This document shows positions 9,128-39,553 of a stretch of 64,000 nucleotides of DNA, piece by piece. The notes under the pieces were generated by a model. That model ran no database searches and had not been told where the DNA came from. It saw only the letters and a list, made by a program, of their open reading frames with translations. The DNA comes from Proteiniphilum propionicum. GTDB lineage: Bacteria; Bacteroidota; Bacteroidia; Bacteroidales; Dysgonomonadaceae. Numbering within the stretch: position 1 is the first letter of the stretch; every line of letters starts with the position of its first letter. The translations under genes were made by a program, and so were the position numbers. The stretch covers positions 3,700,501 to 3,764,500 of the forward strand of contig NZ_CP073586.1 of NCBI RefSeq assembly GCF_022267555.1. The letters are read 5' to 3'.

Positions 9128-9130
9128 AGC

Positions 9131-11209: not shown

Positions 11210-11302
11210 AAACTCCAAACTGTCTCCGAATGTTTTACAAGTTTTTGAAAGGTTTTTTAGAAGAATCTAAGAAAACTTGCAAAAAAATACGGACGAGACC
11301 GA

Positions 11303-19101: not shown

Positions 19102-19174
19102 TTACAGTAAACGAGTTTACAAATAAACAGGTAAACAACATTTACAAAACCACTAAATCCAATTTTATAAACCC

Positions 19175-19211
19175 GACTTCTGTTGTTCCTCATCCAAGAA
19201 CGACAGAAGTC
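19175..19211 (+). promoter_or_regulatory. Hairpin in the leader before traE
   Basis: A 14-bp stem with one G-U pair: GACTTCTGTTGTTC (19175-19188) with GAACGACAGAAGTC (19198-19211), loop of 9. There is no T-tract, so it is not a classical terminator. It lies 18 bases before the traE start and could be an RNA-stability or processing element dividing traA-D from traE-Q. Confidence 0.6.
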
Positions 19212-19228
19212 ATTAAACAAATGTTTGT

Positions 19229-19528
19229 ATGGCAAAGAAAAAAATCCTCTCAACGGCAATCGTTCTGATTGCTGCTTTTAATGCCTTTGCACAAGGAAAC
19301 GGTGCTGCCGGAATCACCAAAGCTACCGATATGGTAACCGGCTATTTCGATCCCGCCACCAAACTCATCTACGCCATCGGCGCCGTTGTGGGACTTATCG
19401 GCGGAGTAAAAGTTTACGGAAAGTTCAGTTCCGGCGATCCTGACACGTCCAAAACCGCGGCTTCGTGGTTTGGTGCGTGTGTGTTCCTGATTGTGGCAGC
19501 CACTATTCTACGTTCCTTCTTCTTGTAA
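19229..19528 (+). CDS. traE: TraE (DUF4134), pilin-like subunit
   Basis: 99 residues. A signal-like N-terminus (TAIVLIAAFNAFAQG) is followed by two hydrophobic segments (LIYAIGAVVGLIGGVKVYG; WFGACVFLIVAATILRSFFL). The size and topology match VirB2-like proteins; this assignment is by family. The stop is 2 bases before traF. Confidence 0.9.
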   Translation: MAKKKILSTAIVLIAAFNAFAQGNGAAGITKATDMVTGYFDPATKLIYAIGAVVGLIGGVKVYGKFSSGDPDTSKTAASWFGACVFLIVAATILRSFFL

Positions 19529-19530
19529 AA

Positions 19531-19854
19531 ATGGCGGAATACGAAATCAATAAAGGCGTGGGCCGCAGCGTCGAGTTTAAAGGCTTGAAAGCCCAATACC
19601 TTTTCATTTTCGCAGGCGGACTGTTGGCGATGTTTATCCTGGTGGCAGTGCTGTACATGGCAGGTGTAAACCAATTTTTATGTCTTGTACTCGGTATTGC
19701 CGGTGCAACGATTATCGTGTGGAAAACCTTTTCGATGAATAAAAAGTACGGGCAGCACGGCTTGATGAAAATTTCAGCCCGAAAGAACCACCCCCGCTAT
19801 CTAATCAACCGAAAACGTATGCGTTCACTCTTAAAAAGAAGAAAAGGAGCATGA
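19531..19854 (+). CDS. traF: TraF (DUF4133), VirB3-like
   Basis: 107 residues from ATG 19531 (MAEYEINKGVGRSVEFKGLK), which is a better start than anything upstream because it follows traE by 2 bases. Two adjacent membrane helices (YLFIFAGGLLAMFILVAVLY; FLCLVLGIAGATIIVW) and a basic C-terminal tail resemble VirB3. Its stop overlaps the traG start (ATGA). Confidence 0.9.
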   Translation: MAEYEINKGVGRSVEFKGLKAQYLFIFAGGLLAMFILVAVLYMAGVNQFLCLVLGIAGATIIVWKTFSMNKKYGQHGLMKISARKNHPRYLINRKRMRSLLKRRKGA

Positions 19855-22334
19855 GAAACATCAGTAAAATGACAACCTTGGAAAATAAGTTTCCGTTGCT
19901 TGCCGTTGAAAATGGCTGTATCGTGAGTAAGGATGCCGACATTACCGTGGCGTTCAGGGTAGAACTGCCCGAACTTTTTACCGTAACCGCGGGCGAATAC
20001 GAAACCATTCATTCGGCATGGAATAAGGCGGTGCGGGTGCTGCCCAACTTCACGGTGGTTCATAAGCAGGATTGGTTTTTAAAAGAGAACTATCAGTCTG
20101 ACATTCAAAAAGATGAATTGAGTTTTCTCAGCCGAAGCTTTGAACGGCACTTCAACGAACGTCCCTATCTCAACCACGAGTGCTATCTGTTTTTGACCAA
20201 AACCACCAGACAGCGAATGGCGATGCAGAGCAATTTTTCTACTCTTTGCAGAGGGAATATCCTGCCCAAAGAGATAAAGGACAAGGAGACCGTTCTTCGT
20301 TTTCTGGAAAGTGTGAGTCAGTTTGAACGTATAATAAACGACAGCGGTTTTATTTCGCTTGTCCGTCTTTCGGAAGATGAAATCTGCGAAAAAGGAGGTC
20401 TGTTGGAGCAGTACTTTTCATTGAAAGGAAAAGAGCACGCACCGCTTGAAGACATCTCGTTAGGTGCGGAAGAAGTGAAAATCGGCGACAATATCCTATG
20501 CCTGCACACGCTTTCAGAGAGCGATGATCTGCCGGCTGCAGTCAGTCCCGACAGCCGGTATGAAAAATTATCGACCGACCGCTCGGATTGCCGATTGTCT
20601 TTTGCCGCGCCTGTGGGCTTGCTGCTTGCCTGCAACCACATTTACAACCAGCTGCTTTTTATCGAAGACAGCGATGAGAACCTGCGTAAGTTCGAGAAAA
20701 GCGCAAGGAATATGCACTCGCTCGGACGTTATTCGCGAAGTAATCAAATCAACGAGCAGTGGATTCAGGAATATCTGAACATAGCCCATTCTCAAGGCTT
20801 GACTTCCATCAGGGCACACTTTAACGTAATAGCGTGGAGCGACAACCGCGATGAACTCAAACATATCAAAAACGATGTGGGCAGTCAGTTGGCTTTAATG
20901 GGCTGCACACCCAGACACAACACCGTAGATACGGCAACGCTCTATTGGGCGTGTATGCCCGGCAATGCCGCCGACTTTCCGTCGGAAGAAAGTTTTTACA
21001 CTTTCATTGAGCCGGCTCTGTGCTTTTTCAGTCAGGAAACCAACTACAAAAGTTCTACATCGCCGTTCGGCATTAAAATGGCGGATAGGCTGACCGGAAA
21101 ACCCCTGCATGTGGATATTTCCGATCTGCCGATGAAAAGAGGCATTATCACCAACCGAAATAAATTTGTGCTGGGGCCCAGCGGAAGCGGAAAATCGTTC
21201 TTTATGAACCATCTTGTCAGACAGTATTACGAACAGGGAACGCATGTGTTGTTGGTGGATACGGGAAACTCGTATCAAGGTTTGTGCAGCCTGATACATC
21301 AAAAGACCAAAGGCGAAGACGGAATTTACTTTACCTACACGGAAGAGAATCCTATTTCTTTCAACCCGTTTTTCACGGATGATTATGTGTTCGATGTTGA
21401 GAAAAAAGACAGTATCAAAACTCTGCTTTTAACGCTTTGGAAAAGTGAAGAAGAGAAAATATCGAAAACCGAAAGCGGAGAACTCGGCAGTGCGGTAACG
21501 GCCTACATCCATAAAATTCAGTCCGACCGGAGTATCACGCCCAACTTCAACACTTTTTACGAGTTTATGCGTGATGTGTATCGTCCCGAATTGGAAAACA
21601 GGGAAATCAAGGTAGAAAAGGATGATTTTAATATCGATAATTTTCTGACCACACTCAGACAATATTACAGCGGTGGACGCTTTGATTTTCTGCTTAATTC
21701 CGACAAAAACATCGACCTTTTAAACAAACGCTTTATCGTGTTCGAGATAGATGCCATCAAGGAAAATCGCGAGCTTTTCCCTGTTGTCACGATTATCATC
21801 ATGGAAGCCTTTATCAATAAAATGAGGCGATTGAAAGGAGTTCGTAAACAACTGATAGTGGAAGAGGCATGGAAAGCCGTTGCATCGGCAAATATGGCTG
21901 ATTATTTGAAATACATGTACAAAACGGTGCGCAAGTATTTCGGCGAAGCCATCGTGGTAACGCAGGAAGTGGACGACATCATTTCCAGCCCGATAGTCAA
22001 AGAGAGCATCATCAACAATTCAGACTGCAAGATATTATTGGACCAACGCAAGTATATGAACAAATTCGATCAGATACAGGCACTGCTCGGACTAACGGAA
22101 AAGGAGAAAGCGCAAATACTTTCCATTAACCAGAACAATGCTCCGAACCGTAAATACAAAGAGGTCTGGATAGGGCTGGGCGGAACGCAATCCGCAGTTT
22201 ACGCCACCGAAGTATCTCGTGAAGAGTACCTTTGCTACACCACCGAAGAAACCGAAAAATTGGAAGTGATGAACAAAGCGGAATCGTTGGACGGAGATAT
22301 GGAGAGGGCGATAAAACTCTTGGTAAACAAGTAA
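19851..22334 (+). CDS. traG: TraG, conjugation ATPase (VirB4-like)
   Basis: 827 residues. An N-terminal TraG_N-type domain precedes the VirB4 ATPase core with Walker A GPSGSGKSF near residue 443, VLLVDTGNSYQGL, and Walker B RKQLIVEEAWK near 665. It powers assembly or substrate passage of the type IV secretion channel at the inner membrane. The start overlaps the traF stop by 4 bases. Confidence 0.95.
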   Translation: MRNISKMTTLENKFPLLAVENGCIVSKDADITVAFRVELPELFTVTAGEYETIHSAWNKAVRVLPNFTVVHKQDWFLKENYQSDIQKDELSFLSRSFERHFNERPYLNHECYLFLTKTTRQRMAMQSNFSTLCRGNILPKEIKDKETVLRFLESVSQFERIINDSGFISLVRLSEDEICEKGGLLEQYFSLKGKEHAPLEDISLGAEEVKIGDNILCLHTLSESDDLPAAVSPDSRYEKLSTDRSDCRLSFAAPVGLLLACNHIYNQLLFIEDSDENLRKFEKSARNMHSLGRYSRSNQINEQWIQEYLNIAHSQGLTSIRAHFNVIAWSDNRDELKHIKNDVGSQLALMGCTPRHNTVDTATLYWACMPGNAADFPSEESFYTFIEPALCFFSQETNYKSSTSPFGIKMADRLTGKPLHVDISDLPMKRGIITNRNKFVLGPSGSGKSFFMNHLVRQYYEQGTHVLLVDTGNSYQGLCSLIHQKTKGEDGIYFTYTEENPISFNPFFTDDYVFDVEKKDSIKTLLLTLWKSEEEKISKTESGELGSAVTAYIHKIQSDRSITPNFNTFYEFMRDVYRPELENREIKVEKDDFNIDNFLTTLRQYYSGGRFDFLLNSDKNIDLLNKRFIVFEIDAIKENRELFPVVTIIIMEAFINKMRRLKGVRKQLIVEEAWKAVASANMADYLKYMYKTVRKYFGEAIVVTQEVDDIISSPIVKESIINNSDCKILLDQRKYMNKFDQIQALLGLTEKEKAQILSINQNNAPNRKYKEVWIGLGGTQSAVYATEVSREEYLCYTTEETEKLEVMNKAESLDGDMERAIKLLVNK

Positions 22335-22363
22335 GCAAGAATTTTAAACCAAATCCAAAAACA

Positions 22364-22993
22364 ATGAAACAGAAACTTTTAATTTTAGTAACGGCATTGA
22401 CTTTAAGCGGTTTCTGCGCCAATGCCCAATTTATCGTGAATGATCCGGTAAACGTTGCCACCTCCATTGCGAATACGGCAAAAGAAATTATCCAGACGTC
22501 CAAAACGGTTAAAAATACGCTCGACAACTTTAAGGAAGTAGAGAAAGTATATAAGCAGGGAAAAGAGTATTATGATGCTCTGCGTAAGGTGAACGATTTA
22601 GTGAAGGATGCCCGAAAAGTACAGCAAACCATCTTGATGGTGGGTGATATTTCGGATTTGTACGTGAACAGCTACAAATTGATGCTGCAGGATAAAAACT
22701 TCTCATTCGAAGAGCTTACCGCGATCGCGTTCGGCTACACAAGACTCTTGGAAGAAAGTGCGGCATTGTTGAAAGAGTTGAAACAGATTGTCAATCCCAC
22801 AACCCTTTCACTCAATGATAAGGAGCGGATGGATTGGATTGACCAAATCTATAAAGAAGTCAGTGAATACCGTTCATTGGTCAGCTATTACACCAACAAA
22901 AACATCTCGGTCTCTTACCTGCGTGCGAAAAAACAGAATGACGCACAACGGGTACTCGACCTGTACGGTTCGTTAAGTGACAAATACTGGTAA
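22364..22993 (+). CDS. traI: TraI (DUF4141) exported transfer protein
   Basis: 209 residues from ATG 22364. The start is chosen because it opens a clean signal peptide (KLLILVTALTLSGFCANAQF). The remainder is helical and charged, typical of DUF4141. It is likely a periplasmic component of the mating channel, VirB5-like by position only. traH, which precedes traI in CTnDOT, is not present in the 29-base gap. Confidence 0.85.
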   Translation: MKQKLLILVTALTLSGFCANAQFIVNDPVNVATSIANTAKEIIQTSKTVKNTLDNFKEVEKVYKQGKEYYDALRKVNDLVKDARKVQQTILMVGDISDLYVNSYKLMLQDKNFSFEELTAIAFGYTRLLEESAALLKELKQIVNPTTLSLNDKERMDWIDQIYKEVSEYRSLVSYYTNKNISVSYLRAKKQNDAQRVLDLYGSLSDKYW

Positions 22994-23108
22994 AACTGCC
23001 CCTGACCTCCTATAGGGGGAATAGGACGTTAAGTAAATAAATATTTTCTAAATGAAATAACGATGAATAATGACACTAAAACACCCCCTTCAGGGGGAAG
23101 GGGGGCTT
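22994..23108. repeat. Two GC-rich palindromes in traI-traJ gap
   Basis: This noncoding gap carries CCTCCTATAGGGGG (around 23005-23018) and CCCCCTTCAGGGGG (23084-23097), imperfect relatives of the palindrome at 14744. Such short C-run/G-run hairpins recur between genes of this element. Confidence 0.55.
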
Positions 23109-24104
23109 ATGGATTTTGAAAATTTACATCAGGTACTGCGAACGCTGTACACTGAAATGATGCCCTTGGTGGGCAATATGACAGGCATAGCCAAGGGTGT
23201 TGCCGGACTCGGCGCTCTGTTTTACGTGGCAAGCCGTGTGTGGCAGTCCCTTGCGCGTGCCGAAGAGATCGACGTTTACCCGCTTTTGAGACCTTTTGCC
23301 ATCGGGCTTTGTATTATGTTTTTCCCTACTATTGTTTTGGGGACGATAAACAGCGTGCTTTCGCCCGTGGTAAAAGGAACTAATCAGATGATGGCAGCAC
23401 AAACCCTGGATATGAACAAATTGCGTGAACAACGCGACCGATTGGAACGGGAAGCGATGCTGAGAAATCCCGAAACAGCCTTTTTGGTCAGCAACGAAGA
23501 GTTTGACAAAAAGATAGACGAAATGCAGGGACTCAACCCGAAACACCTTGTTACCATTACATCAATGTATCTGGAAAGGGGGATGTACAACCTGAAAAAG
23601 TCGATGCAGGATGCCTTCAAATCTTTTCTGGAGATATTGTTTCAAGCTGCCGCTCTGATAATCGATACCATTCGGACATTTTTCCTTATCGTTCTTTCCA
23701 TACTGGGACCCATTGCTTTCGGAATTGCCGTGTTTGACGGATTCCAATCTACTTTGACGGGATGGTTGAGCCGCTATGTTTCGGTTTATCTGTGGCTGCC
23801 CGTATCGGATCTGTTCAGTACCATGCTTGCCAAAATCCAGACGCTGATGATAGGCAAAGAGATTGCAGCTCTTGAAAATCCGGCGTACATCCCGGACGGT
23901 TCGAGTGTGGTTTATATCATTTTTATGCTGATAGGCATTGTCGGATATTTTGTAATTCCTACCGTTGCCGGATGGATTATCCAGGCAGGCGGAATGGGCA
24001 ACTACGGAAAAAACATTAATCAAACCGTGCAAAAAAGCGGTGCAGTGGCGGGAGCCGGCGCAGGAGCCGTAGGCGGAAATGTTTTGGGTAAATTGAGAAA
24101 ATAA
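23109..24104 (+). CDS. traJ: TraJ, polytopic membrane transfer protein
   Basis: 331 residues from ATG 23109 (MDFENLHQVLRTLYTEMMPL). There are several membrane helices (about 30-50, 70-95, 180-220, 255-290) and a glycine/alanine-rich tail (AVAGAGAGAVGGNVLGKL). Conserved TraJ of Bacteroidetes conjugative elements; proposed VirB6-like inner-membrane channel component. An earlier in-frame ATG would read through the GC-rich palindrome and is unlikely. Confidence 0.9.
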   Translation: MDFENLHQVLRTLYTEMMPLVGNMTGIAKGVAGLGALFYVASRVWQSLARAEEIDVYPLLRPFAIGLCIMFFPTIVLGTINSVLSPVVKGTNQMMAAQTLDMNKLREQRDRLEREAMLRNPETAFLVSNEEFDKKIDEMQGLNPKHLVTITSMYLERGMYNLKKSMQDAFKSFLEILFQAAALIIDTIRTFFLIVLSILGPIAFGIAVFDGFQSTLTGWLSRYVSVYLWLPVSDLFSTMLAKIQTLMIGKEIAALENPAYIPDGSSVVYIIFMLIGIVGYFVIPTVAGWIIQAGGMGNYGKNINQTVQKSGAVAGAGAGAVGGNVLGKLRK

Positions 24105-24128
24105 TAAACGAGTAAACAAAGTAAAAAT

Positions 24129-24752
24129 ATGGAATTCAAGTCATTAAAAAACATTGAAACATCTTTCAGGCAGATACGGCTTTACGCCGTTGTTTTTGGT
24201 GTGGTGTGTCTTTTGATAGTCGGTTTTTCTCTTTGGAAATCATACGCTTTTGCCGAGAAACAACGGGAAAAAGTCTATGTGTTGGACAACGGAAAATCAC
24301 TGATGCTTGCGCTTTCGCAAGATGCGGCAACAAACCGTCCGGTAGAAGCGCGCGAACACATTCGCCGTTTTCATGAACTGTTCTTCACGCTGTCGCCCGA
24401 CAAGTCAGCCATTGAAAGCAATATGAAACGAGCATTTTTTCTTGCCGACCAATCGGCTTTCAACTACTACAAAGACCTTACGGAAAAAGGATATTACAAC
24501 CGGATTATATCGGGAAATATCCAACAGCGTATCGAAATTGACAGCATTCAGTGCAATTTTGAGGTCTATCCTTATGAAGTGAGAACCGTTGCCCGTCAAT
24601 ACATCATCCGTTCGAGCAACCTGACCGAACGCAGTTTGGTTTCAGAATGCCGTCTGGTCAATTCCATCCGTTCCGACAACAATCCGCAAGGTTTTATCGT
24701 CGAAAATTTTATTATTCGTGAAAACAGAGATATCCGGACAGTCAAACGATAA
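24129..24752 (+). CDS. traK: TraK, VirB8-like
   Basis: 207 residues. One N-terminal transmembrane helix (LYAVVFGVVCLLIVGFSLW, about 19-37) is followed by a periplasmic domain, matching the bitopic VirB8 layout. It contains AREHIRRFHELFFTLSPDK and is conserved in CTnDOT-type operons. It lies 24 bases after traJ and 6 before traL. Confidence 0.9.
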   Translation: MEFKSLKNIETSFRQIRLYAVVFGVVCLLIVGFSLWKSYAFAEKQREKVYVLDNGKSLMLALSQDAATNRPVEAREHIRRFHELFFTLSPDKSAIESNMKRAFFLADQSAFNYYKDLTEKGYYNRIISGNIQQRIEIDSIQCNFEVYPYEVRTVARQYIIRSSNLTERSLVSECRLVNSIRSDNNPQGFIVENFIIRENRDIRTVKR

Positions 24753-24758
24753 AGGAAT

Positions 24759-25034
24759 ATGAATAATATCTTGATAAAAATACGCCAAAAACGAAATCGT
24801 TTTAACGATAAATTAAAACGGAAATTAGGTGACCTTTCGTCTACGGCAAAACTGAACGGCATTTTGCTTGTGATGCTCTTTTATGCGGTAATGACATTGA
24901 TAATGCTTGTCAGAGCATTCGATAAAAATGAAAGATCAATAATTATCAAGCATATCGAGCCTGCTCCGTTGATTGACACACCGATAAAGCTTGAGCCCGA
25001 AAAGGACACGTTATCAGCAGAAGAATTTAAGTAA
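24759..25034 (+). CDS. traL: TraL (DUF3989)
   Basis: 91 residues. A basic N-terminus (RQKRNRFNDKLKRKLG), one transmembrane helix (GILLVMLFYAVMTLIMLV) and a short outer segment are characteristic of DUF3989 TraL proteins between traK and traM. Function unknown. Confidence 0.85.
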   Translation: MNNILIKIRQKRNRFNDKLKRKLGDLSSTAKLNGILLVMLFYAVMTLIMLVRAFDKNERSIIIKHIEPAPLIDTPIKLEPEKDTLSAEEFK

Positions 25035-25063
25035 AACAACCACTAATCCACAAATTTCAAATT

Positions 25064-26449
25064 ATGACAATGAAAGAAAATAATGAAACTTCGACTACTG
25101 TTTCGGAAGAAAAAACTTCGAAACAGGACGAACAGAAAAGAGAGGAGCCACAGACACGCAAGCTACCCACGATCGAAGAAATTCAAAAGCGAAAGAAAGT
25201 ATTGGTGTATATGTTGCTGGTTTTGGTTTTTATCGGTGTGATGCACTGGATTTTTGCACCTTCAAAGGCCGAAAAGGAGAAATTGCAAACCGAACAGGGA
25301 ATAAACGTTGAAATACCGGAAATATCCGGCGGTGAACTGCCCGAAGATAAGGAAACCGCCTACAAGCTGGCAGAGAATGAACAAAAGGAGAACGAACGTC
25401 AATGGACAATGGGTACACTTTCCGACTTTTTCGGTGATACTCAAAAGTCGGATAATCGTCTCGAAGAGAGGGAGTCGTTTGCTGATCCGGATTACCGTTC
25501 CGGTAAAGGCAACGAAATTAGCCGGTCGGCATCGGCTTACGGTGATATCCGGAACACGCTCGGCAATTTCTACGAAGAGAACTCCCAAATGGAAATCTTG
25601 CAACAACAAATTGATGAATTGCAAGCACAACTGGACGAGAAAAACGGTTTGGTAGATGAAGACCGGGAGATACAAAGACAACTCGAACTGATGGAAAAAT
25701 CATACGAAATGGCAGCCAGATACCTGCCGCAAAATCAACAAGCGACAACACCCAATCCTTTTGAAACTGCCGTTGAACGGGAAATGGACGAGCCGTTGCC
25801 GAATGCTTACACCAAAACGGAAGCCAAAGAGTCTGTGTTTACCGTACTGCCCGAAGTGAAAAACGTGGTGTCGGCTCTTTATCAGGATGTCCCCGACAGC
25901 GTGTTTATGGCCGAACAGATGCAGGAGCGCAACCGCTCGTTTCTTCCCGGCACCGAAACCGTCGACGACATTCCGCTAAAAAACACGCTGAAAGTGGCAG
26001 TTTATGAAACACAAACGTTAAAAGACGGCGAAACCGTGCGCTTGCGCCTGTTGGAACCGGCCCGCGTGGCGAACATGCTTGTCCCGAAGAACACGCTGCT
26101 GACGGCTGTAGCCCGGATACAGGGCAACCGCTTGACGCTTTCCGTAACCAGCATCGAACACCGGGAACGGATTGTCCCCGTAAACCTTTCGGCATACGAC
26201 CTGGACGGACAGCCGGGTGTCTTTATCCCCAATTCCCTGGAAGTGAATGCCGCCAAGGAAATTGCTGCCGGAATGGGACAATCCGCCGGAACGAGTTTCA
26301 CGTTTGCATCATCGGCAGGACAACAACTGGCCGCCGATGCGGGGCGCGGACTGTTGCAGGGTGCATCGCAATACTTCGGGAACAGGATGCGTGAAGTGAA
26401 GGTGACGCTCAAAAGCGGTCACAAGCTCTTTTTGATGCAAAACAGATAA
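25064..26449 (+). CDS. traM: TraM, VirB10-like scaffold
   Basis: 461 residues. The sequence shows a charged cytosolic N-terminus (1-45), a transmembrane helix (VLVYMLLVLVFIGVMHWIF, about 46-65), a coiled-coil stretch (ILQQQIDELQAQLDEKNGLV near 170-190) and a C-terminal domain from about 320 on (RLRLLEPARVANMLVPKNTL). The bitopic layout with a C-terminal beta domain fits VirB10-type energy-transducing scaffold proteins; that role is inferred. ATG 25070 is an alternative start. Confidence 0.9.
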   Translation: MTMKENNETSTTVSEEKTSKQDEQKREEPQTRKLPTIEEIQKRKKVLVYMLLVLVFIGVMHWIFAPSKAEKEKLQTEQGINVEIPEISGGELPEDKETAYKLAENEQKENERQWTMGTLSDFFGDTQKSDNRLEERESFADPDYRSGKGNEISRSASAYGDIRNTLGNFYEENSQMEILQQQIDELQAQLDEKNGLVDEDREIQRQLELMEKSYEMAARYLPQNQQATTPNPFETAVEREMDEPLPNAYTKTEAKESVFTVLPEVKNVVSALYQDVPDSVFMAEQMQERNRSFLPGTETVDDIPLKNTLKVAVYETQTLKDGETVRLRLLEPARVANMLVPKNTLLTAVARIQGNRLTLSVTSIEHRERIVPVNLSAYDLDGQPGVFIPNSLEVNAAKEIAAGMGQSAGTSFTFASSAGQQLAADAGRGLLQGASQYFGNRMREVKVTLKSGHKLFLMQNR

Positions 26450-26480
26450 ACCGATTATAAACCACTAAAATCCAATTTGT

Positions 26481-27407
26481 ATGAAACTAAAATTAAAAAC
26501 AATCTTTTTCTTCGTTGCCCTGCTTTCTGGGGCGATTACCTCAAATGCCCAAATTAACACGGGCGATCTCTATCAGGGAATGAGCCGGACAATTCCCAAC
26601 GGCAGAGTAGTATTGCCTTACGGACTCTCTGTAGCTTACGAGAAAACGGTGCACCTGATTTTTCCTTCCCAAATACGTTACGTTGATTTGGGTAGCAGTA
26701 ACATTATTGCAGGCAAAGCGGAAGATGCCGACAACGTACTTCGGGTAAAGGCTGCCGTTCGCGATTTTGAAACGGAAACCAACCTGAGCGTAATCTGTAA
26801 CGACGGAAGTTTTTTCTCCTTTAACGTGAAATATGCCGAAGAACCGGAAAGGTTGAATATCGAAATGCAGGATTTTCTGTATTCGGGTGTGAATAATTTG
26901 CCGACCAACAAAGCCGATATTTACTTCAAGGAACTCGGTAACGAATCACCGGTGTTGGTGAAACTGATCATGAAAACGATTTGGCAAAACGACCGCCGGG
27001 AAATCAACCACATCGGCAGTAAGAAGTTTGGCTTACAGTTCCTGTTGAGAGGATTATACTCAAACAACGGGTTACTTTATTTTCACACGTTGATTAAAAA
27101 CCAAAATCAAATGCCTTATCAGGTAGATTTTGTCACGTTCAAGGTTGTGGATAAAAAAGTGGCGAAACGCACAGCCATACAGGAACAGGTATTGCAGCCG
27201 CTACGCTCGTTCAACGAAGTAACCCGTATCGGCGGATACCAAACCCAACGTTCCGTCTTTGTCCTGGAGCAATTTACGCTGCCCGATGACAAGCAATTGG
27301 AAGTAACACTCTTTGAGCAAAACGGCGGTCGCCACCAAACGTTTGTGGTCGAGAACGAGGACTTAATCCGTGCCAAAGATATCGATAACCTGAAATTGAA
27401 ATTCTGA
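26481..27407 (+). CDS. traN: TraN (DUF4138), VirB9-like
   Basis: 308 residues. A signal peptide (IFFFVALLSGAITSNAQI) precedes a beta-rich domain (VHLIFPSQIRYVDLGSSNII) typical of DUF4138. It is probably the periplasmic/outer-membrane partner of TraM. The stop TGA overlaps the traO ATG by one base (TGATGA region), so translation is probably coupled. Confidence 0.92.
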   Translation: MKLKLKTIFFFVALLSGAITSNAQINTGDLYQGMSRTIPNGRVVLPYGLSVAYEKTVHLIFPSQIRYVDLGSSNIIAGKAEDADNVLRVKAAVRDFETETNLSVICNDGSFFSFNVKYAEEPERLNIEMQDFLYSGVNNLPTNKADIYFKELGNESPVLVKLIMKTIWQNDRREINHIGSKKFGLQFLLRGLYSNNGLLYFHTLIKNQNQMPYQVDFVTFKVVDKKVAKRTAIQEQVLQPLRSFNEVTRIGGYQTQRSVFVLEQFTLPDDKQLEVTLFEQNGGRHQTFVVENEDLIRAKDIDNLKLKF

Positions 27408-27976
27408 TGAAACGGATACTGTTATTCATGGTGGTGACGGTGGCGATAGCTGCCGTATCACACGCTCAACGGCTGATACCCGGACAACGGGGATTACAGT
27501 TGTCCATAGGAGTTCCGATTACGGAAAGTAAGCTGTTTGAAAACGGCAATTTTACCGCCGAGATGGCGATGACCATTAATCACAAACGAGCCAATCATTG
27601 GCTGCTCGGATTGGAATACACGAAAAGGCATTTTGCTTATCGTGATATGCAAATCCCGTCCGAAACGGTTGTTTTTGAAGGCGGTTATCTCTTAAATCTC
27701 TTTTCCGATGCAGGAAAGAATGTATTGCTCAACACCGGAATTACTGCCGTTGCAGGTTATGAAACGGTTAATCGAAATGAAAAGCTTTTACCCGATGGTG
27801 CAACGCTATTGACACGAGACCGATTTGTTTACGGCGGTGCTTATCACTTGGCATTGGATCTGTTTGTAATCGACAATCTTGTGCTTTTCGTAAAAGGGAA
27901 ATGTAATGTGTTGTGGGGAAGTGATGTGGAGATGTTCAGACCTTCTTTACAAACAGGAATAAGACTAATTTTTTAA
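27407..27976 (+). CDS. traO: TraO, outer-membrane-like transfer protein
   Basis: 189 residues. A signal peptide (LLFMVVTVAIAAVSHAQRL) is followed by alternating beta strands ending in LQTGIRLIF, a final-strand aromatic typical of outer-membrane barrels. Conserved TraO family. traP (primase), expected next in CTnDOT, is absent; only 27 bases separate traO from traQ. Confidence 0.9.
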   Translation: MKRILLFMVVTVAIAAVSHAQRLIPGQRGLQLSIGVPITESKLFENGNFTAEMAMTINHKRANHWLLGLEYTKRHFAYRDMQIPSETVVFEGGYLLNLFSDAGKNVLLNTGITAVAGYETVNRNEKLLPDGATLLTRDRFVYGGAYHLALDLFVIDNLVLFVKGKCNVLWGSDVEMFRPSLQTGIRLIF

Positions 27977-28003
27977 CAATGAAGACTAACAATATAATAA
28001 ACT

Positions 28004-28465
28004 ATGAAACATAAAATAATCAACAACTTTTGGGTGGTGGGAGTGCTTGCCCTTGCAGGGTTTTGTCTATTTGCTTGTAATCACGAGTTGGATATTCAAC
28101 AAGCATACCCGTTCACGGTAGAGACAATGCCGGTGCAGAAGCACATCGCCAAGGGGCAGACGGCGGAGATACGCTGTACGCTCAAACGACAGGGACGGTT
28201 TGAAGAAGCATGCTATACCATCCGTTATTTCCAACCCGATGGCAAGGGGATATTGAAAATGGATAACGGTACGGTCTTCAAGCCCAATGACCGCTATCCG
28301 CTCACGAAAGAGGAGTTCAGGCTATACTACACATCTGCTTCCACCGATCGGCAGACGATAGACGTGTATGTGGAGGATAATTTCGAACAGACGGCAAAAC
28401 TCTCGTTTGAGTTCAACAGCCAAAAGGACGAGGAAAAGGAGAAGACGAATGAGAATAAGAAATAA
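28004..28465 (+). CDS. traQ: TraQ (DUF3872) lipoprotein
   Basis: 153 residues. A lipoprotein signal (VLALAGFCLFACN, Cys near residue 25) is followed by a beta-sandwich-like domain with HIAKGQTAEIRCTLKRQGRF and YPLTKEEFRLYYTS, diagnostic of DUF3872. The tail is acidic/lysine-rich (KDEEKEKTNENKK). It overlaps the lysozyme start by 17 bases. Confidence 0.9.
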   Translation: MKHKIINNFWVVGVLALAGFCLFACNHELDIQQAYPFTVETMPVQKHIAKGQTAEIRCTLKRQGRFEEACYTIRYFQPDGKGILKMDNGTVFKPNDRYPLTKEEFRLYYTSASTDRQTIDVYVEDNFEQTAKLSFEFNSQKDEEKEKTNENKK

Positions 28466-28886
28466 ACTTATCGTCTTGTGCCTTGTCTGCCTCTCCTGCT
28501 TGCGGCTTTCCGCTCAGGATGGTAGAAATGCTCTGCTCTTGCTTCCTCCGTTCGAGCGTGCCACCGTTTGCATCAAGCACTTCGAGGGTTTACACGGGTT
28601 CAAGGACGCACCCTATGTCGGATATGGTAATAAGTTGCAAAAGGGAGAACGTTTTACGGCGGCGATGCCGGAACGGCAGGCGGATTCGCTGCTTCGGGCA
28701 GACCCGATGAAGCGTCTGATGATGTTCAAGGATTACGGAAAGGATGCCCTGCTGCTTGCCGTCCTGTCCTACAATGTCGGAGCGGGCAGATTACTGGGAT
28801 ACAGTAAACATCCCAAAAGCCGATTGCTGCGGAAGATAGAGGCGGGAGACAGGAATTTCTACCGTGAATTTGTCTCTTTCTGCTGA
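28449..28886 (+). CDS. Phage-type lysozyme of the tra operon
   Basis: 145 residues from ATG 28449, chosen because it gives a signal peptide (LIVLCLVCLSCLRLSAQDG). The GH24-like core has the likely catalytic Glu in IKHFEGLHGFKDAPYVGYGN and the helix LAVLSYNVGAGRLL. It is probably a peptidoglycan hydrolase that opens the wall for the mating channel. It is the last gene of the transfer operon; the GC content drops sharply just afterwards. Confidence 0.88.
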   Translation: MRIRNKLIVLCLVCLSCLRLSAQDGRNALLLLPPFERATVCIKHFEGLHGFKDAPYVGYGNKLQKGERFTAAMPERQADSLLRADPMKRLMMFKDYGKDALLLAVLSYNVGAGRLLGYSKHPKSRLLRKIEAGDRNFYREFVSFC

Positions 28887-29044
28887 TACAAGGGACAAGT
28901 CCTGCGAGGGCTTGTCAAACGACGAAATGTGGAGTTTGCCCTATTTTATATACCCTGATTTTCAAATACACCTCTTGCGACATTTTTATGCTCCACAAGG
29001 GGCGTTTTCTTTCTGTTTTATTCGCCTTTCTCGTTATGAATGAG

Positions 29045-29052
29045 TAACTTTG
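29045..29052 (+). promoter_or_regulatory. Bacteroidetes-type -7 box for the cargo module
   Basis: TAACTTTG fits TAnnTTTG. A start site about 7 bases later would give a leader of roughly 25-30 nt before ATG 29086. This marks an independent promoter at the junction between the tra operon and the AT-rich cargo. Confidence 0.55.
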
Positions 29053-29085
29053 TCGTCTGAAAATAATAGAACATTAGTGCAATAT

Positions 29086-30501
29086 ATGAAACCATTGAAT
29101 TCTAATAAGGCAAATCTTTTACTCCTTTTTACAAGAGACCCGTTTGTTAAACTTGTAAACAAGGAGTTGGAATATTATTCTTCTAAAGATGACTCGCTGA
29201 TAGGTTTTGTTTCTTTAGATAAGGAGGATAAAACATTCCATGCCATGCTTCTCGACCGAGATTCAAGAAACAAGTATTGTCTCGTTTCTATGAATTTGGA
29301 TCTTAATTCAATAGAGGAAGGAAGAAAAGCTCTAAAAGACATGATGGGTACATATGTACGAAATGAAGACGCTCTGAAGAAAGAGCTTCCAGCAAATGAC
29401 TTTTTCTCTCCGATTGTAAAATCTGAGCAGCAACATCCATACTTTACCATGTTATTGGATAAGGATGGATTCTTTACTGCGGCAAAATCTGTCATTGAAG
29501 AGTTGTCTTTTCACTACGAGGATAGGGATGGCAATTTTGTAGATCAATTCCAATCAATAAATGGCTTTGATGCACGAATTTGGGAATTATATTTATGGTG
29601 CTATTTTAGGGAGGAGAACTTTCATTTCAACTATAATCATACAGCTCCAGACTTTTTGATAGAGAAGATGGGATATGAGATTGCAATAGAGGCAGTTCAT
29701 ATCAATCGCAAACAAGGATTAGACGAACCTGCAAATATTCCGACAGTTGAAGAAATTTTCAAGAAAATGGAGAATGAGATTCCATTAATGTATGGTTCTC
29801 CTCTATATTCAAAGTTAAATCACACATATAAAGAACAACCATATTGGGAGCTTCCACATGTAAAGGGCAAGCCATTGGTCTATGCCATTGCCGATTTTCA
29901 TGCAGATATGTCTATGACTTGGTCTTTTCCAGGAATTATAAGTATCTTATATGGTATTGATCAGAAAGCAATCCATAATAATGATGGTACAATATCATTG
30001 GAAAACGAAGCCGGTATAACATTTCAGAAAAAAGAAATTAGCATTAAACCACTTTTCCTTGATGACAAATTCAAACATGTGAGTGCTATATTGTTTTCTC
30101 CTTGTGGTACTTTGCCAAAATTCAACAGAATGGGAATACAAGCCGGCTATGGGAACAATAACAACAAGTTATATCAAATTAAGATGTGCTATAATTCAAG
30201 CCCAAATGCAATTTTACCAGATGTAATTGGTAAGGTCGTGAATGAGGAGTGCAGGGAGACATGGGCAGATGGCATTCAGATATTTCATAATCCATTTGCC
30301 GAGATACCATTAATTCCAGAATTTTTTCCACATGCTGGACATCATTTCTACAAAGATGGACTTCTTAGAAGTATAGTTCCCAACGAGCATACCATTTCAA
30401 CTATGACGTACAATATCAAAAATATTCCTATTGTTCCTCCTTCATTTAATATGCATTCTTCAGAAGAATACGATGAGATTATTAAAAAATGGAGAATGTG
30501 A
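29086..30501 (+). CDS. Uncharacterised protein, nuclease-like motif, defence-module partner
   Basis: 471 residues from ATG 29086; a TTG at 29050 is in frame but overlaps the -7 box. I do not recognise the family. The middle holds RIWELYLWCYFREENFHF (about 164-181) then APDFLIEKMGYEIAIEAVHI (about 187-206). Glu167, Pro188-Asp189 and Glu202 are laid out like the helix-E, PD and ExK elements of PD-(D/E)XK nucleases, though Val replaces the final Lys. No signal peptide or membrane helix is seen. It is markedly AT-rich compared with the tra genes. It lies 77 bases upstream of an OLD-family nuclease gene on the same strand and is probably part of the same module. Nuclease activity is my inference. 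Confidence 0.6.
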   Translation: MKPLNSNKANLLLLFTRDPFVKLVNKELEYYSSKDDSLIGFVSLDKEDKTFHAMLLDRDSRNKYCLVSMNLDLNSIEEGRKALKDMMGTYVRNEDALKKELPANDFFSPIVKSEQQHPYFTMLLDKDGFFTAAKSVIEELSFHYEDRDGNFVDQFQSINGFDARIWELYLWCYFREENFHFNYNHTAPDFLIEKMGYEIAIEAVHINRKQGLDEPANIPTVEEIFKKMENEIPLMYGSPLYSKLNHTYKEQPYWELPHVKGKPLVYAIADFHADMSMTWSFPGIISILYGIDQKAIHNNDGTISLENEAGITFQKKEISIKPLFLDDKFKHVSAILFSPCGTLPKFNRMGIQAGYGNNNNKLYQIKMCYNSSPNAILPDVIGKVVNEECRETWADGIQIFHNPFAEIPLIPEFFPHAGHHFYKDGLLRSIVPNEHTISTMTYNIKNIPIVPPSFNMHSSEEYDEIIKKWRM

Positions 30502-30578
30502 CAAACAAGTACGTATTTAATGAAATCGCATGATATTACTTTCCTATAAATCCAAATCCTATTGTAAACAACAAAGAA

Positions 30579-32147
30579 ATGATGACTATAGCAAAAATTA
30601 AGCTACACAACTTCAAGAGATTCAAAGATCTGTTTTTTGATGTTAATCCCGATATTAATATTTTTATTGGAGATAATGAATCCGGAAAGAGTACAATTCT
30701 ACAAGCGATAGATATTGTTGCTCGAGGAAGTAGAACACGCATTGAGAATATTGGTCTCGACAAACTTTTTAATATTGAGGCTATCCGTGAATATATGAAC
30801 GGGGATCGAGATTTGAACAAGATGCCAGAGATGTATGTGGAACTCTACTTTCCTGATCAACCAGATCCCTCATTAGAAGGGATGAACAATAGTAAAAGAA
30901 ACCTATGTTCAGGTATAAGATTGTGTTGTATCCCCAATGATGAATATAGTCAGCAGATTGCACAATTGCTGCAAAATCCTAATGCTTCTTTTCCTTTGGA
31001 ATTTTATAAAATTGTATTTGAAACTTTTGCAGGTGAATCATTCAATGCTTATACTAAAAGGCTAAGTTGTATTTTTGTTGACAACTCTACAATAGGTAGT
31101 CCTCGTGCCATGCGCGACTATGTAAGTGATATTTATCATGTACAGCTAACTGATGAGCAACGTATAAATGCAAGATATGCTTACAAGAATAATAAAGTTC
31201 AATTTCAAAATCAAATATTGGCTCAATATAATGCTTTGATACCACCTTATAGTTTTGCAATAAGAGAATCTGCTGACGATAATATTGAAACAGATATTAC
31301 ACTTTTAGAGAATGATATTCCATTAGAGAATAAGGGAACAGGCACTCAGTGCTTTATAAAAACAGAACTTTCTATAAACAGGGCCGTCAGCAGTATTGAT
31401 GCTGTATTGATTGAAGAACCAGAAAATCATTTGAGCTATACAAAGATGCTGGAACTTATTGAACTTATAAGAGGTTCTCAAAATCGACAGCTCTTTATCT
31501 CTACTCATTGCGACCTTATTGCTACAAGATTAAACCTAAAAAAATGCCTGCTTTTTAATAGTTTATCTACCAATGTTGTTAGTTTGGGGAATTTACCTGA
31601 TGATACCGCCGATTTTTTCATAAAGGCTCCAGATAATAATATGCTACAATTTGTATTATCCCCAAAATCCATTTTGGTAGAAGGAGATGCGGAGTTTATT
31701 TTAATGGAGGCTTTGTATAAAAGAACAATTGCTAAAGAGCTATCTTCAAGCGGGATAGGAGTTATCGCTGTTGGTGGAAAATGCTTCAAAAGATATTTGG
31801 ACATAGCAAAATTATTGAATAATAAAGTAGCGGTAATAACCGACAATGATCATGATTATGCTGTTAATGTAACAAATAATTACTCGGATTATATCCAAAA
31901 TCAGTTTGCAAATATCAAGATTTATTCGGATGCAAATAATGAAAGGAACACTTTCGAAGTGTGTATTTATCAGGATAATCAAGCTATATGTGATAGTGAA
32001 TTTCAAACTCCTGGACGTAGGTTAGCCACGGTAGATTTTATGCTAAAGAATAAGGCTGAAGCTGCATATTTGTTGCAGAAGAATAAAGCTGATACAATTG
32101 TTGTTCCTCAATATATACAAGATGCAATAACATGGATAGACGCTTAA
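30579..32147 (+). CDS. OLD-family ATP-dependent nuclease (AAA ATPase + TOPRIM), GajA-like
   Basis: 522 residues. An SMC/ABC-like ATPase has Walker A GDNESGKST (31-39), an ABC-like segment ENKGTGTQCF (about 250), Walker B AVLIEEPENHLS (275-286) and the H-loop STHCD (His310). The C-terminal TOPRIM domain has VEGDAE (Glu369), VIAVGGK (395-401) and VITDND (Asp422, Asp424), which bind catalytic metal in OLD nucleases. Starts at 30579 and 30582 are both possible. It overlaps the following helicase gene by 16 bases. An OLD nuclease plus UvrD helicase is the composition of Gabija; the sequence alone cannot tell whether it is Gabija proper or a relative. Confidence 0.88.
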   Translation: MMTIAKIKLHNFKRFKDLFFDVNPDINIFIGDNESGKSTILQAIDIVARGSRTRIENIGLDKLFNIEAIREYMNGDRDLNKMPEMYVELYFPDQPDPSLEGMNNSKRNLCSGIRLCCIPNDEYSQQIAQLLQNPNASFPLEFYKIVFETFAGESFNAYTKRLSCIFVDNSTIGSPRAMRDYVSDIYHVQLTDEQRINARYAYKNNKVQFQNQILAQYNALIPPYSFAIRESADDNIETDITLLENDIPLENKGTGTQCFIKTELSINRAVSSIDAVLIEEPENHLSYTKMLELIELIRGSQNRQLFISTHCDLIATRLNLKKCLLFNSLSTNVVSLGNLPDDTADFFIKAPDNNMLQFVLSPKSILVEGDAEFILMEALYKRTIAKELSSSGIGVIAVGGKCFKRYLDIAKLLNNKVAVITDNDHDYAVNVTNNYSDYIQNQFANIKIYSDANNERNTFEVCIYQDNQAICDSEFQTPGRRLATVDFMLKNKAEAAYLLQKNKADTIVVPQYIQDAITWIDA

Positions 32148-33160
32148 TACTTGCAGTCGCAGGATCTGGAAAAACGACTTTCTTGATAAATACATTAAAC
32201 TTGGAACAGCGTTTCTTGATAGTTACCTACACGGATAATAATTTAGCAAATATCCGCCAACGCATAATCAGCACTTTTGGTTATGTGCCTCATAATATAA
32301 CGCTTATGTCATATTTTCAATTCTTAATACGTGTCTGTTATCGCCCTTTTCTCAAGGATAAAGTTCGGGCAAAAGGTATCACGTGGGATATGCCAAACCA
32401 GAAAACATTAAAATTAAAGAGAAACAATCCTTTATTTTACCTCACGAAAGGGCGGTATTTATATCATAATAGGATTGCCAAGTTGTGTTTAGAATGTTGT
32501 GCAAAATTGATTAAAGAGCGTATAGAGAAATTTTATGACTACTTTATGGTTGATGAAATTCAAGATCTTGGTGGGCATGACTTCAATTTGATACAAGCCA
32601 TCACTCCTACTACCATTGATTCTCTATTTGTAGGAGATTTCTACCAACATACTTTCGACACCAGTAACGATGGGAATGTTAATAACGGACTATATAATGA
32701 CTACAATAAATACAAGAAAAAATGGTCTGCGATTGGAGTTACTATTGACGAGACTACGCTTTCCAACAGTTATAGATGTTCGCCTACAATTTGTCAACTT
32801 GTCACGCAACAATTACACATCCAAATTTCTTCTCATCGGCAAGATAATACAAAAATCATTTTAATAGATAATCAAGATGATGCAGATACCTTGTTTGTCG
32901 ACAACGAAAAAATCAAATTGTTTTACAGAGAGGCTAATAAATACTCGTGCTATGCAGAGAATTGGGGAAAATCTAAAGGCCTTGACAAGTTCCAAGATGT
33001 TTGTATTGTATTGAACCAAACTACCTTGAAAGGATACAATGACAATACATTGCATCAATTAAATCCGTCAACCCGGAATAAACTTTACGTTGCTTACACA
33101 AGAGCAAAAAGGGATATATACTGTATTCCACATGTGTTTTTAGATAAATACAAACAATGA
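32132..33160 (+). CDS. Small UvrD/Rep-like superfamily 1 helicase, GajB-like
   Basis: 342 residues. SF1 motifs in order: I (AVAGSGKTT, residues 8-16), II (YFMVDEIQDL, about 136-145), III (LFVGDFYQHTF), IV (LSNSYRCSP), V (KSKGLDKFQDVCIVL) and VI (LYVAYTRAKRD near the C-terminus). It is shorter than GajB (about 500 residues) and lacks most of the usual 1B/2B insertions, so processive unwinding is doubtful and a nucleic-acid sensing or stimulatory role is plausible. ATG 32132 lies inside the OLD gene's last codons, implying translational coupling. No terminator with a clean T-tract follows; a 5-bp tandem repeat and hairpins come after. Confidence 0.88.
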   Translation: MDRRLILAVAGSGKTTFLINTLNLEQRFLIVTYTDNNLANIRQRIISTFGYVPHNITLMSYFQFLIRVCYRPFLKDKVRAKGITWDMPNQKTLKLKRNNPLFYLTKGRYLYHNRIAKLCLECCAKLIKERIEKFYDYFMVDEIQDLGGHDFNLIQAITPTTIDSLFVGDFYQHTFDTSNDGNVNNGLYNDYNKYKKKWSAIGVTIDETTLSNSYRCSPTICQLVTQQLHIQISSHRQDNTKIILIDNQDDADTLFVDNEKIKLFYREANKYSCYAENWGKSKGLDKFQDVCIVLNQTTLKGYNDNTLHQLNPSTRNKLYVAYTRAKRDIYCIPHVFLDKYKQ

Positions 33161-33375
33161 CTTTACTTTCCCTCTAAAACAAACATATCTACCTGTATTT
33201 GAGAGAATGATATTATATTATATTATATTATCTTATTGGCTTTTTGTTACTTTTGAGCCGTATCAACTCACTGTCAAAAGTAACGAGGTGTTTTTCGCTG
33301 GGGTTTCTTTGCTCCTTTCTTTGTCCGCCCGAAGCTCACGAAAGAAAGGAGCGGTCGGCAAATCTGCCGACCGCT
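33161..33375. other. Convergent spacer with tandem repeat and overlapping hairpins
   Basis: Four ATATT copies lie at about 33210-33229. GCTCCTTTCTTT (33311-33322) pairs perfectly with AAAGAAAGGAGC (33341-33352), and GCGGTCGGCA (33351-33360) pairs perfectly with TGCCGACCGC (33365-33374). The two stems share bases 33351-33352, so full forms of both compete. The second probably ends the minus-strand operon starting upstream at 37.3 kb. The spacer separates the defence-like module from that operon. Confidence 0.6.
33351..33374 (-). terminator. Hairpin after the minus-strand accessory operon
   Basis: A perfect 10-bp GC-rich stem with 4-base loop begins one base beyond the TAA of the gene ending at 33376. 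On the minus strand it is followed by TCCTTTCTTTC, a weak T-rich tract. It may serve both directions. Confidence 0.55.
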
Positions 33376-33621
33376 TTACTCCGTCTGTTCTTCTTGAACG
33401 GTTATCCGTCCCGTCCTTATATCGGGGTGAGTGGAGAAAGCCCAATTCACCTCCTCATCGGGAAGGGTGCTGTGAATGTTTCCACCCATCACCATTCCGC
33501 AATCCTGAATGACCTTTTGTCGTGCTTCTTCTCTGCTCTCGGCAACCACCTCAAAAACACCCTCGAAAATGTATCGTGTCCGTACTCTGTAAACTCTCTT
33601 CTTCATATTCTCAAAATTCAA
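33376..33621 (-). CDS. Small conserved ICE protein, unknown function
   Basis: 81 residues (or 76 from the internal Met). The body KKRVYRVRTRYIFEGVFEVV plus AESREEARQKVIQDCGMVMG reads like a small alpha/beta domain. I recognise it only as the kind of accessory protein carried near the end of CTnDOT-type elements. It is likely to be the last gene of the minus-strand operon, with a strong hairpin directly after its stop. Confidence 0.6.
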   Translation of the reverse strand: MNFENMKKRVYRVRTRYIFEGVFEVVAESREEARQKVIQDCGMVMGGNIHSTLPDEEVNWAFSTHPDIRTGRITVQEEQTE

Positions 33622-33716
33622 CCTTTAATAATCTGTATTCCTTTGGTTCTCCATTGGATAACCTGCGGTGGGTAAGCCAAAAATGGTGTGCGCCATAGCC
33701 GTATGCAAAGGACTTG

Positions 33717-37958: not shown

Positions 37959-39173
37959 TTATAAAAATTGAAATTCAGATAGTTTTGAAGATAAATTCAG
38001 CATGTCATTTTGTATTTTTTCTTTAGTAATCCTTGCATATATTTGTGTCGTTTTTATGTTCGTATGTCCCAACATTTTGCTTACTGTTTCAATCGGAACA
38101 CCTTTCTCTAATGTAATCGTAGTTGCAAAAGTATGCCGGGCTACGTGAAAGGTCAAATTTTTATTGATACCGCACAGATCTGCTATTTCTTTCAAGTAGC
38201 TGTTCATTTTCTGATTACTCAAAACAGGTAAAAGTTTATTGTTTTTTGTTTTACCCTTATATTTTTCAATAATTTGCAATGGAATATCAAGTAGTAATAC
38301 GTTGGATTGTACATTAGTTTTTTGCCTGTTAATCACAATCCACTTCTGACCATTGGTTTCAAGAATATTGTCATGACTTAAATTATAAACATCAATATAG
38401 GAGAGTCCCGTAAAGCACGAAAAAATAAAAATATCCCTAACAATTTCTAATCTTTGAATGCTGATTTTTTTATCTAACAGACGATTGATTTCTTCGCTCG
38501 TAAGGTAACCTCTGTCCACTTTTTTCATTGAAATGCTGTAATTTAAAAATGGGTCGTGGTGGATTAATCCTTTTTTCTGCGCATGAATAATTATTGTTTT
38601 GATATATTTCAAGTACTTTGCAGTAGTGTTGTGAGAGCATTGCAAATCTGCTTTTAAATATAATTCAAAATCATTGAGAATTGTAAAATTAATGTCATTC
38701 AATGAAATGTCATTACGACTGTATTTGTTCTTTAAAAAGTGTACAAAGTATTTTTTTGTACGTTCGTATTTTTCGAGTGTAGCAGGGGACTTTGTTTTGT
38801 TGACTAATAGTGAAAAATCGCTATTGAATTTTTCAAACAACTCTATAAAAGTCATCATGGACTGGTTTCCATGAAGGTATAAAGATTTGATTTTTTCGGT
38901 TGTAAGAAACTCATCATCTTGTAGTTTGAAAAACAGTTTATTCAAAGAGTTGGTTATACCATCAAGCCGGTTGTTGAGATTTAGAGCTTCAGCCGTTTTG
39001 CCTGTCATTCTATTAAACTTTGCATTCCACATTTCGGGCTTGCAAGATAGTCCTGATGAACCAACGTTACACATATTTCCATTAAGAGAAATTCTAATCA
39101 TAATGGGACATTTCCCGGATTTGTTCTTGTAGTTGCTTCGTAAGTAGTACGAAATTTTAAATACCGCTTTCAT
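37959..39173 (-). CDS. int: Tyrosine recombinase, ICE integrase
   Basis: 404 residues. The N-terminal arm-binding and SAM-like core-binding regions (about 1-210) precede the catalytic domain. FTGLSYIDVY has Ser in place of the first catalytic Arg, a known oddity of IntDOT-type enzymes. The other catalytic residues are in HVARHTFAT (His and Arg), LGHTNIKTTQIYARI (His and the nucleophilic Tyr). It should integrate and excise the element. It is read away from the tRNA-Asp gene and is flanked upstream by direct and inverted repeats that look like recombinase binding sites. Confidence 0.93.
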   Translation of the reverse strand: MKAVFKISYYLRSNYKNKSGKCPIMIRISLNGNMCNVGSSGLSCKPEMWNAKFNRMTGKTAEALNLNNRLDGITNSLNKLFFKLQDDEFLTTEKIKSLYLHGNQSMMTFIELFEKFNSDFSLLVNKTKSPATLEKYERTKKYFVHFLKNKYSRNDISLNDINFTILNDFELYLKADLQCSHNTTAKYLKYIKTIIIHAQKKGLIHHDPFLNYSISMKKVDRGYLTSEEINRLLDKKISIQRLEIVRDIFIFSCFTGLSYIDVYNLSHDNILETNGQKWIVINRQKTNVQSNVLLLDIPLQIIEKYKGKTKNNKLLPVLSNQKMNSYLKEIADLCGINKNLTFHVARHTFATTITLEKGVPIETVSKMLGHTNIKTTQIYARITKEKIQNDMLNLSSKLSEFQFL

Positions 39174-39470: not shown

Positions 39471-39479
39471 ATGTTTTAG

Positions 39480-39553
39480 CGGTATGGACGGGACTCGAAC
39501 CCGCGACCCCCTGCGTGACAGGCAGGTATTCTAACCAGCTGAACTACCACACC
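39480..39553 (-). tRNA. tRNA-Asp (GTC)
   Basis: On the minus strand the acceptor GGTGTGG (39547-39553) pairs with CCATACC (39481-39487). The anticodon stem CCTGC/GCAGG encloses loop CTGTCAC with anticodon GTC. The T-arm is GCGGGTTCGAGTCCCGT and the D-arm has AGCTGGTTAG. The CCA end is not encoded. The 3' end faces the integrase, as is common for ICE neighbours. Confidence 0.97.

Follow-up and report, generated by a model that had tools for sequence, protein, structure and literature searches.

Three consecutive genes in a 64,000-nucleotide stretch of the Proteiniphilum propionicum genome (the whole stretch analysed, hereafter the window; the host genome is one contig of 3.9 Mb) lie directly behind the transfer (tra) operon of an integrative and conjugative element (ICE). 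Very probably, these genes are defence cargo of the ICE and make up two separate and already known systems: PD-T7-1, encoded by the first gene, and a compact form of Gabija, encoded by the second and third. An earlier note on this DNA had read them as a single Gabija-like module headed by an uncharacterised protein. A check of the open reading frames (ORFs) agrees with that note on the three genes, their coordinates, the 77-base gap between the first two and the 16-base overlap between the last two:

29086-30501, plus strand: PD-T7-1 family gene, 471 residues, ATG start (PADLOC PDLC04073)
30579-32147, plus strand: gajA, 522 residues, OLD-type ATPase and TOPRIM nuclease (PADLOC, Pfam, motifs)
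32132-33160, plus strand: gajB, short form, 342 residues, helicase-like ATPase of superfamily 1A (SF1A; PADLOC, AlphaFold 2 model, Foldseek)
32132-32147, plus strand: 16-base overlap of gajA and gajB

PD-T7-1, Gabija and the short GajB all have PADLOC models, and, as far as sequence can tell, the identities of all three genes are clear and their catalytic motifs intact.

The first gene matches the PADLOC profile for PD-T7-1 with an expectation value (E) of 2.3e-140, residues 1-445 of 471 aligning to profile positions 1-448 of 452, and this match disposes of its description as an unknown protein. The profile for PD-T7-5 gave a weaker match (E 1.2e-57), and searches of Pfam and NCBIfam profiles returned nothing. 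Judged by its profile match, the gene is a full-length homologue of PD-T7-1, differing from the described family in its place, immediately before Gabija on an ICE, and in its distance: the best relative in the plasmid collection, from Klebsiella, is 38% identical. PD-T7-1 originated in a selection in E. coli with phage T7 (Vassallo et al. 2022, PMC9519451), and passages in two papers describe phage protection by E. coli members when cloned or overexpressed (PMC9519451, PMC12409345): in the first, T-even phages were affected more strongly than T7 itself, and in the second, protection in K-12 covered a T7-like phage.

Four residues of the PD-T7-1 protein (E167, D189, E202 and K243) are invariant across 29 aligned relatives. 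In an AlphaFold 2 (AF2) model with a predicted local distance difference test score (pLDDT) of 91, E167 is placed on a helix (161-176), D189 just before a strand (190-194), E202 on a strand (197-206) and K243 on a helix (231-244), with a further strand (264-270) next, giving a predicted core order of helix-strand-strand-helix-strand. The protein is thus modelled as a probable PD-(D/E)XK nuclease, the heading under which PD-T7-1 appears in a published listing (PMC10952713).

The earlier identification of an OLD protein followed by a UvrD-like protein as the Gabija pairing held up, and profiles, motifs and structural matches support genes two and three as GajA and a short GajB. Gene two matches the PADLOC profile for GajA (PDLC00102) at E 1.5e-109, against 6.6e-18 for Old, and Pfam recovers AAA_15 (4.9e-18) and OLD-like_TOPRIM (8e-17). 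It carries a Walker A motif (GDNESGKST, 31-39), EEPENH (279-284), E368 and D422xD424, the last three of which are invariant across 10 aligned GajA proteins. E368, D422 and D424 were equated by motif with E379, D432 and D434, given as the TOPRIM active site of the Bacillus cereus protein (BcGajA; PMC10781630), and the PDB matches to the GajA profile are led by a Thermus OLD protein (6p74).

Gene three matches the GajB profiles PDLC00148 (369 positions; 5.7e-54) and PDLC00140 (365 positions; 2.1e-47) and possesses GSGKTT (11-16), DEIQD (141-145), SYRC (213-216), SKGLDKF (281-287) and VAYTRAK motifs. Its AF2 model (pLDDT 84), searched with Foldseek, has among its best PDB folds PcrA (1pjr, 1.4e-9), a Gabija complex (8tk1, 1.8e-9) and UvrD. 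The remark that this helicase is much shorter than GajB is right with respect to B. cereus GajB (BcGajB), but not for GajB in general, as PADLOC already holds the two short models. Compared with the Gabija of B. cereus VD045, the window pair shares the order of an OLD-type ATPase-TOPRIM protein and then a UvrD-like protein, together with the TOPRIM acids and the superfamily 1 motifs, and differs in having a GajB of 342 rather than 494 residues. Since the GajB profile aligns over 5-252 to residues 14-265 of the BcGajB chain, the N-terminal halves being nearly collinear, the roughly 150 residues absent from the short protein fall mostly in the C-terminal half, which is where the Cacc/2B subdomain (residues 314-416 according to PMC10681800) sits. 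No insert of 2B size lies between SYRC and SKGLDKF, and the four subdomains 1A, 1B, 2A and 2B seen in B. cereus are not all present in the window GajB. Because PADLOC counts the short GajB as Gabija, we treat the apparent lack of 2B as a subtype trait and not as grounds for exclusion from Gabija. BcGajB itself is described in a passage of PMC10681800 as showing no unwinding, alone or with GajA, and a GajB without 2B would be compatible with a role as an ATPase or sensor.

By its organisation, the gajA/gajB pair appears to be a unit of its own. Class 2 OLD genes are described as having a neighbouring gene for a UvrD/PcrA/Rep-like GajB (PMC10568477), and in Gabija as described the two proteins form a 4:4 assembly that protects against phages. 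The 16-base overlap was found exactly in 15 of 22 gajA/gajB pairs, the other seven overlapping by 1-20 bases (in this survey the start codons of two loci, L013 and L077, are unsure), and the pairs with the 16-base overlap span the window's order, an IncF plasmid and viral contigs; that this overlap has been kept suggests translational coupling. A GajA tree of 27 rows places the window protein with that of a sister locus in Marseille-P2826 (L024; support 100/100) and sets eight rows, L077 and L122 among them, in a separate group (100/100); it gives no firm order to the deeper branches within the short group. The IncF plasmid, pAVS0787-A of E. coli (NZ_CP124329.1), codes for a GajA of 521 and a GajB of 340 residues, 38% and 45% identical to the window pair; vapBC, ccdAB and repE adjoin it, and the stretch examined holds no PD-T7-1 match. 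An ATPase-TOPRIM defence protein, IbfA, is also described from an IncI1 plasmid (PMC12111858).

The cassette is cargo of a CTnDOT-like ICE whose tra genes point to the Bacteroidales. As the earlier note had stated, it stands behind the tra operon, with TraG, TraJ (Pfam CtnDOT_TraJ), TraM and TraQ upstream and a relaxase on the opposite strand, and it is AT-rich, with a G+C fraction of 0.325-0.352 in the four 1-kb intervals of 29001-33000, compared with 0.41-0.49 for the 1-kb intervals of 19001-29000. Downstream of the cassette come a PcfJ-like gene, the gene of a tyrosine integrase and tRNA-Asp. The features of this setting are:

14786-16042, minus strand: ICE relaxase (Pfam Relaxase, E 7e-28)
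28004-28465, plus strand: TraQ, close to where the tra operon ends (Pfam TraQ_transposon, E 1.9e-63)
28368-28886, plus strand: last gene of the tra operon, 172 residues, 54% identical to its L024 counterpart
28968-29010, plus strand: terminator-like hairpin and T run at the end of the tra operon (fold -11.6 kcal/mol, z -2.48)
29045-29052, plus strand: TAACTTTG, candidate -7 box, 33 bases 5' of the ATG
37959-39173, minus strand: ICE tyrosine integrase (Pfam Phage_integrase, E 4.7e-20)
39479-39553, minus strand: tRNA-Asp, possible integration target

This layout marks the cassette as a predicted transcription unit separate from the tra operon. A counterpart of the hairpin stands in the same place in L024, stronger (-22.8 kcal/mol, z -4.65) and partly different in sequence. 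The suggestion that the cassette has its own -7 box stands in part: TAACTTTG lies within a 23-base run that is identical in the sister cassette, but the motif TANNTTTG is common by chance (87 occurrences in the window against a mean of 69.55 in shuffles), and of the -33/-7 pair that forms the Bacteroides promoter consensus none was found at the candidate promoter before the PD-T7-1 gene. A mechanical ORF list starts that gene at a TTG (29050) within the candidate promoter; the ATG is at 29086. Since no terminator-like site was found in the 77-base gap, the PD-T7-1 gene and gajA are probably co-transcribed.

The sister locus (LT608321.1) possesses all three genes, 91, 94 and 94% identical in amino acids, in the same place behind the tra operon, whereas the surrounding tra proteins are 37-80% identical to those of the window. 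Nucleotide identity, taken in steps of 100 alignment columns, stays at 0.33-0.73 as far as 28961, then reaches 0.79 over 28962-29060 and 0.76-1.00 over 29061-33160, with 0.76 reached only around the gap between the PD-T7-1 gene and gajA; 3' of gajB it is 0.65, then 0.85-0.90 (33261-33659), 0.73-0.82 to 33958, and 0.65 and lower thereafter. Given this profile and the difference between cassette and tra proteins, the block has passed, at one and the same site, between ICE backbones that have diverged. Ratios of non-synonymous to synonymous substitution (dN/dS) between the two cassettes are 0.194 for the PD-T7-1 gene, 0.11 for gajA and 0.131 for gajB, values that show purifying selection, all three genes having been kept by selection. 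The conserved stretch at 33261-33659 holds a minus-strand ORF (33376-33621, 81 residues) with no Pfam match.

The cassette is thus probably an ordinary two-system cargo in working order. What we infer beyond this, namely activity, substrates and independence of action of the two systems, would run as follows. GajA, with its ABC ATPase and TOPRIM domains, would form a DNA-cleaving core; the short GajB would be an ATPase that senses the state of DNA, hydrolyses nucleotides and gates cleavage by GajA; and the two, if their action can be transferred from published work on B. cereus and Pseudomonas aeruginosa, would cut incoming phage or plasmid DNA that is not occupied by the host's end-repair helicase-nuclease. 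PD-T7-1 would be a second, separate, nuclease-like defence that acts alone on phage nucleic acid. The Gabija of P. aeruginosa is described as blocking the circularisation of phage genomes shielded from RecBCD, with plasmids also sensitive (PMC12407980). A system that restricts both phages and plasmids, carried on an ICE, might serve mainly to exclude competitors in conflicts between mobile elements (rival plasmids, ICEs and phages), more than to defend the host at large, a reading that is compatible with two separate systems and that we consider possible, if doubtful. Plasmid records with a GajA match (E up to 1e-5) are typed as conjugative in 1464 of 2281 cases, which fits such a role; anti-phage action is still compatible with all this, however, and the PD-T7-1 of E. 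coli came out of a selection with phage.

A system of three components, in which the PD-T7-1 protein would act as an accessory nuclease or trigger of the compact GajAB, is improbable, although the three genes share a strand, are joined across the gap without a terminator-like site and moved as a block relative to the sister. The earlier note had proposed such a three-gene module and named linkage of the upstream gene to OLD/UvrD pairs elsewhere as its test; such linkage exists, but it is rare. A scan of genome contigs returned 230 PD-T7-1 relatives. Among the best 80, examined with flanks of up to 8 kb (some loci end at contig edges, L029 about 200 bases downstream), 3 have a Gabija pair next to them: the sister cassette; L077 (Syntrophorhabdus), whose GajA is 30% identical; and L055 (Pseudomonas marincola), where a long-type Gabija lies upstream of the PD-T7-1 gene. 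In the GajA tree the latter two belong to lineages other than the window's. None of 48 PD-T7-1 loci on viral contigs adjoins Gabija; in L145 a divergently oriented pair lies at a distance of about 3.3 kb, leaving 77 of 80 genome and 47 of 48 viral loci with no pair in the flanks examined. Two phage records likewise carry the PD-T7-1 gene without adjoining Gabija. Our own profiles had flagged six genome and two viral loci; L075 (best match Old), L030 (a PDC-M01A/PtuA-type candidate), L095 (a NERD-UvrD candidate) and the viral L183 (best match PDC-M31A) were dropped.

The closest relatives after the sister, L025-L027, are 77-79% identical and have no Gabija in the stretch examined; instead, an AbiH-type gene lies immediately upstream of PD-T7-1 (L025:86-631, L026:7069-7998, L027:6858-7784; the Pfam match, 4.7e-57, is for L026 only, and the three genes cluster together). 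These loci come from three metagenome-assembled genomes, at least one of them from rumen. Among same-strand neighbours of PD-T7-1 within 500 bases (93 scanned, with 30 of 80 loci having none upstream and 37 of 80 none downstream, and with gajA of L077 used in place of a 107-codon ORF beside PD-T7-1), PADLOC matches at E 1e-15 were mixed, with PDC-S51 (5), AbiEi (3), Old/GajA-type (3) and AbiH (2) among the best 25 of 90 matching families. DUF3800 proteins adjoin PD-T7-1 relatives, on either side, at as many as 7 of the 80 loci, compared with 3 for Gabija (L030, L033, L048, L053, L055, L071 and L075; confirmed by Pfam in 5, with L053 and L071 assigned by BLAST clustering only), and are a possible recurring partner.

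Seen from the Gabija side, PD-T7-1 was not found in the stretch examined around five other GajA loci of the window's order (one of them with only 182 bases upstream), and 25 of 26 viral GajA-like loci, of short and long types, are without it, the exception (L122) being on the same contig as L145. Compact Gabija occurs without PD-T7-1 on two plasmids, the F-type one of E. coli and one of Kurthia, and also in genomes of the order other than the host's. We also searched samples of 295 genomes in the order and 395 in the phylum, both including the host genome; GajA was scored for the first 3-4 candidates per genome, cut-offs differed between samples (1e-20 and 1e-40, then 1e-60), and one genome of the order sample (G279) is apparently identical with the contig of L043, titled Chlorobiota. 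Besides the host, 1 genome of the first sample and 2 of the second were listed for PD-T7-1, and 5 and 3, respectively, for GajA of the window's profile; no other genome in either was listed with both. In the host genome, a second PD-T7-1 gene (C1 1646992-1648326; L010:8960-10342), about 40% identical and roughly 2 Mb away, has no GajA match within the 19 kb read around it. Its setting is ICE-like, with integrase-like, PcfJ-like and transposase-like ORFs near, labelled by eye.

Adjacency in 3 of 80 genome and 0 of 48 viral loci, one of the three being the sister cassette, together with the lack of another genome listed with both in the two samples, leaves the trio unsupported as a conserved module. 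The linkage looks like rare, defence-island clustering, as judged from raw counts with no enrichment control. PD-T7-1 would be expected to act as a single gene, and the genomic context favours this.

Several observations weigh against a reading as two separate systems. Adjacency recurs in two unrelated lineages (L077 and L055), the two systems are near each other in a third (L145), and Old alone stands beside PD-T7-1 in L075, although the partners in these loci, being of other Gabija lineages or Old alone, count against a three-component system. Gabija pairs in the flanks were called with our own profiles at E up to 1e-5, by which divergent Gabija could be missed, and the probable co-transcription of the PD-T7-1 gene and gajA would also fit a partnership. 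With regard to the proteins, BcGajA is absent among the PDB matches listed for the GajA profile (best 60 of 65), Foldseek gave the PD-T7-1 model no PDB match below E 1e-3, and its profile had 0 PDB matches up to E 1. Because both PDB searches were blank, the nuclease fold of the PD-T7-1 protein rests on its motifs and the order of its structural elements, and the Foldseek result is the reason for grading it as probable.

A joint two-nuclease unit borne by the ICE and favoured by selection for shared transfer on such elements, in which the PD-T7-1 nuclease would supply or expose DNA ends and a non-unwinding GajB without 2B would sense them and release GajA, is a shade less probable again than a three-component system at large. 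Among the listings, abstracts and passages of our literature search we found no paper that treats PD-T7-1 and Gabija as one system, and one such listing gives the two apart (PMC10952713). That the cassette is ageing, non-functional cargo is barely credible, given three open frames, the presence of their motifs and the dN/dS values against the sister cassette.

Elsewhere in the window, a Pfam search with the last gene of the tra operon, which we take to be lysozyme-like, gave no match, and in a search for a hotspot behind the tra operon this gene was matched in only 3 of 198 genomes, the host's included. The tRNA-Asp region has no repeat of at least 14 bases elsewhere within the 64-kb window; across the whole genome it has five partial matches (24-48 bases), one of which adjoins an integrase-like ORF at the second ICE-like locus. 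Upstream of the relaxase region, positions 7131-12691 code for radical SAM and B12-binding proteins, which are separated by an IS66 transposase.

PD-T7-1, which screens in E. coli brought to light, and compact Gabija, carried also by F-type plasmids, are in all likelihood brought together here on a Bacteroides-type ICE, which provides an example of a defence cassette swapped as a block among diverged conjugative backbones. In addition, the compact GajB, apparently without 2B, offers a natural test of Gabija's need for helicase activity: if a GajB of this kind still protects, the view of GajB as an ATPase sensor would gain.

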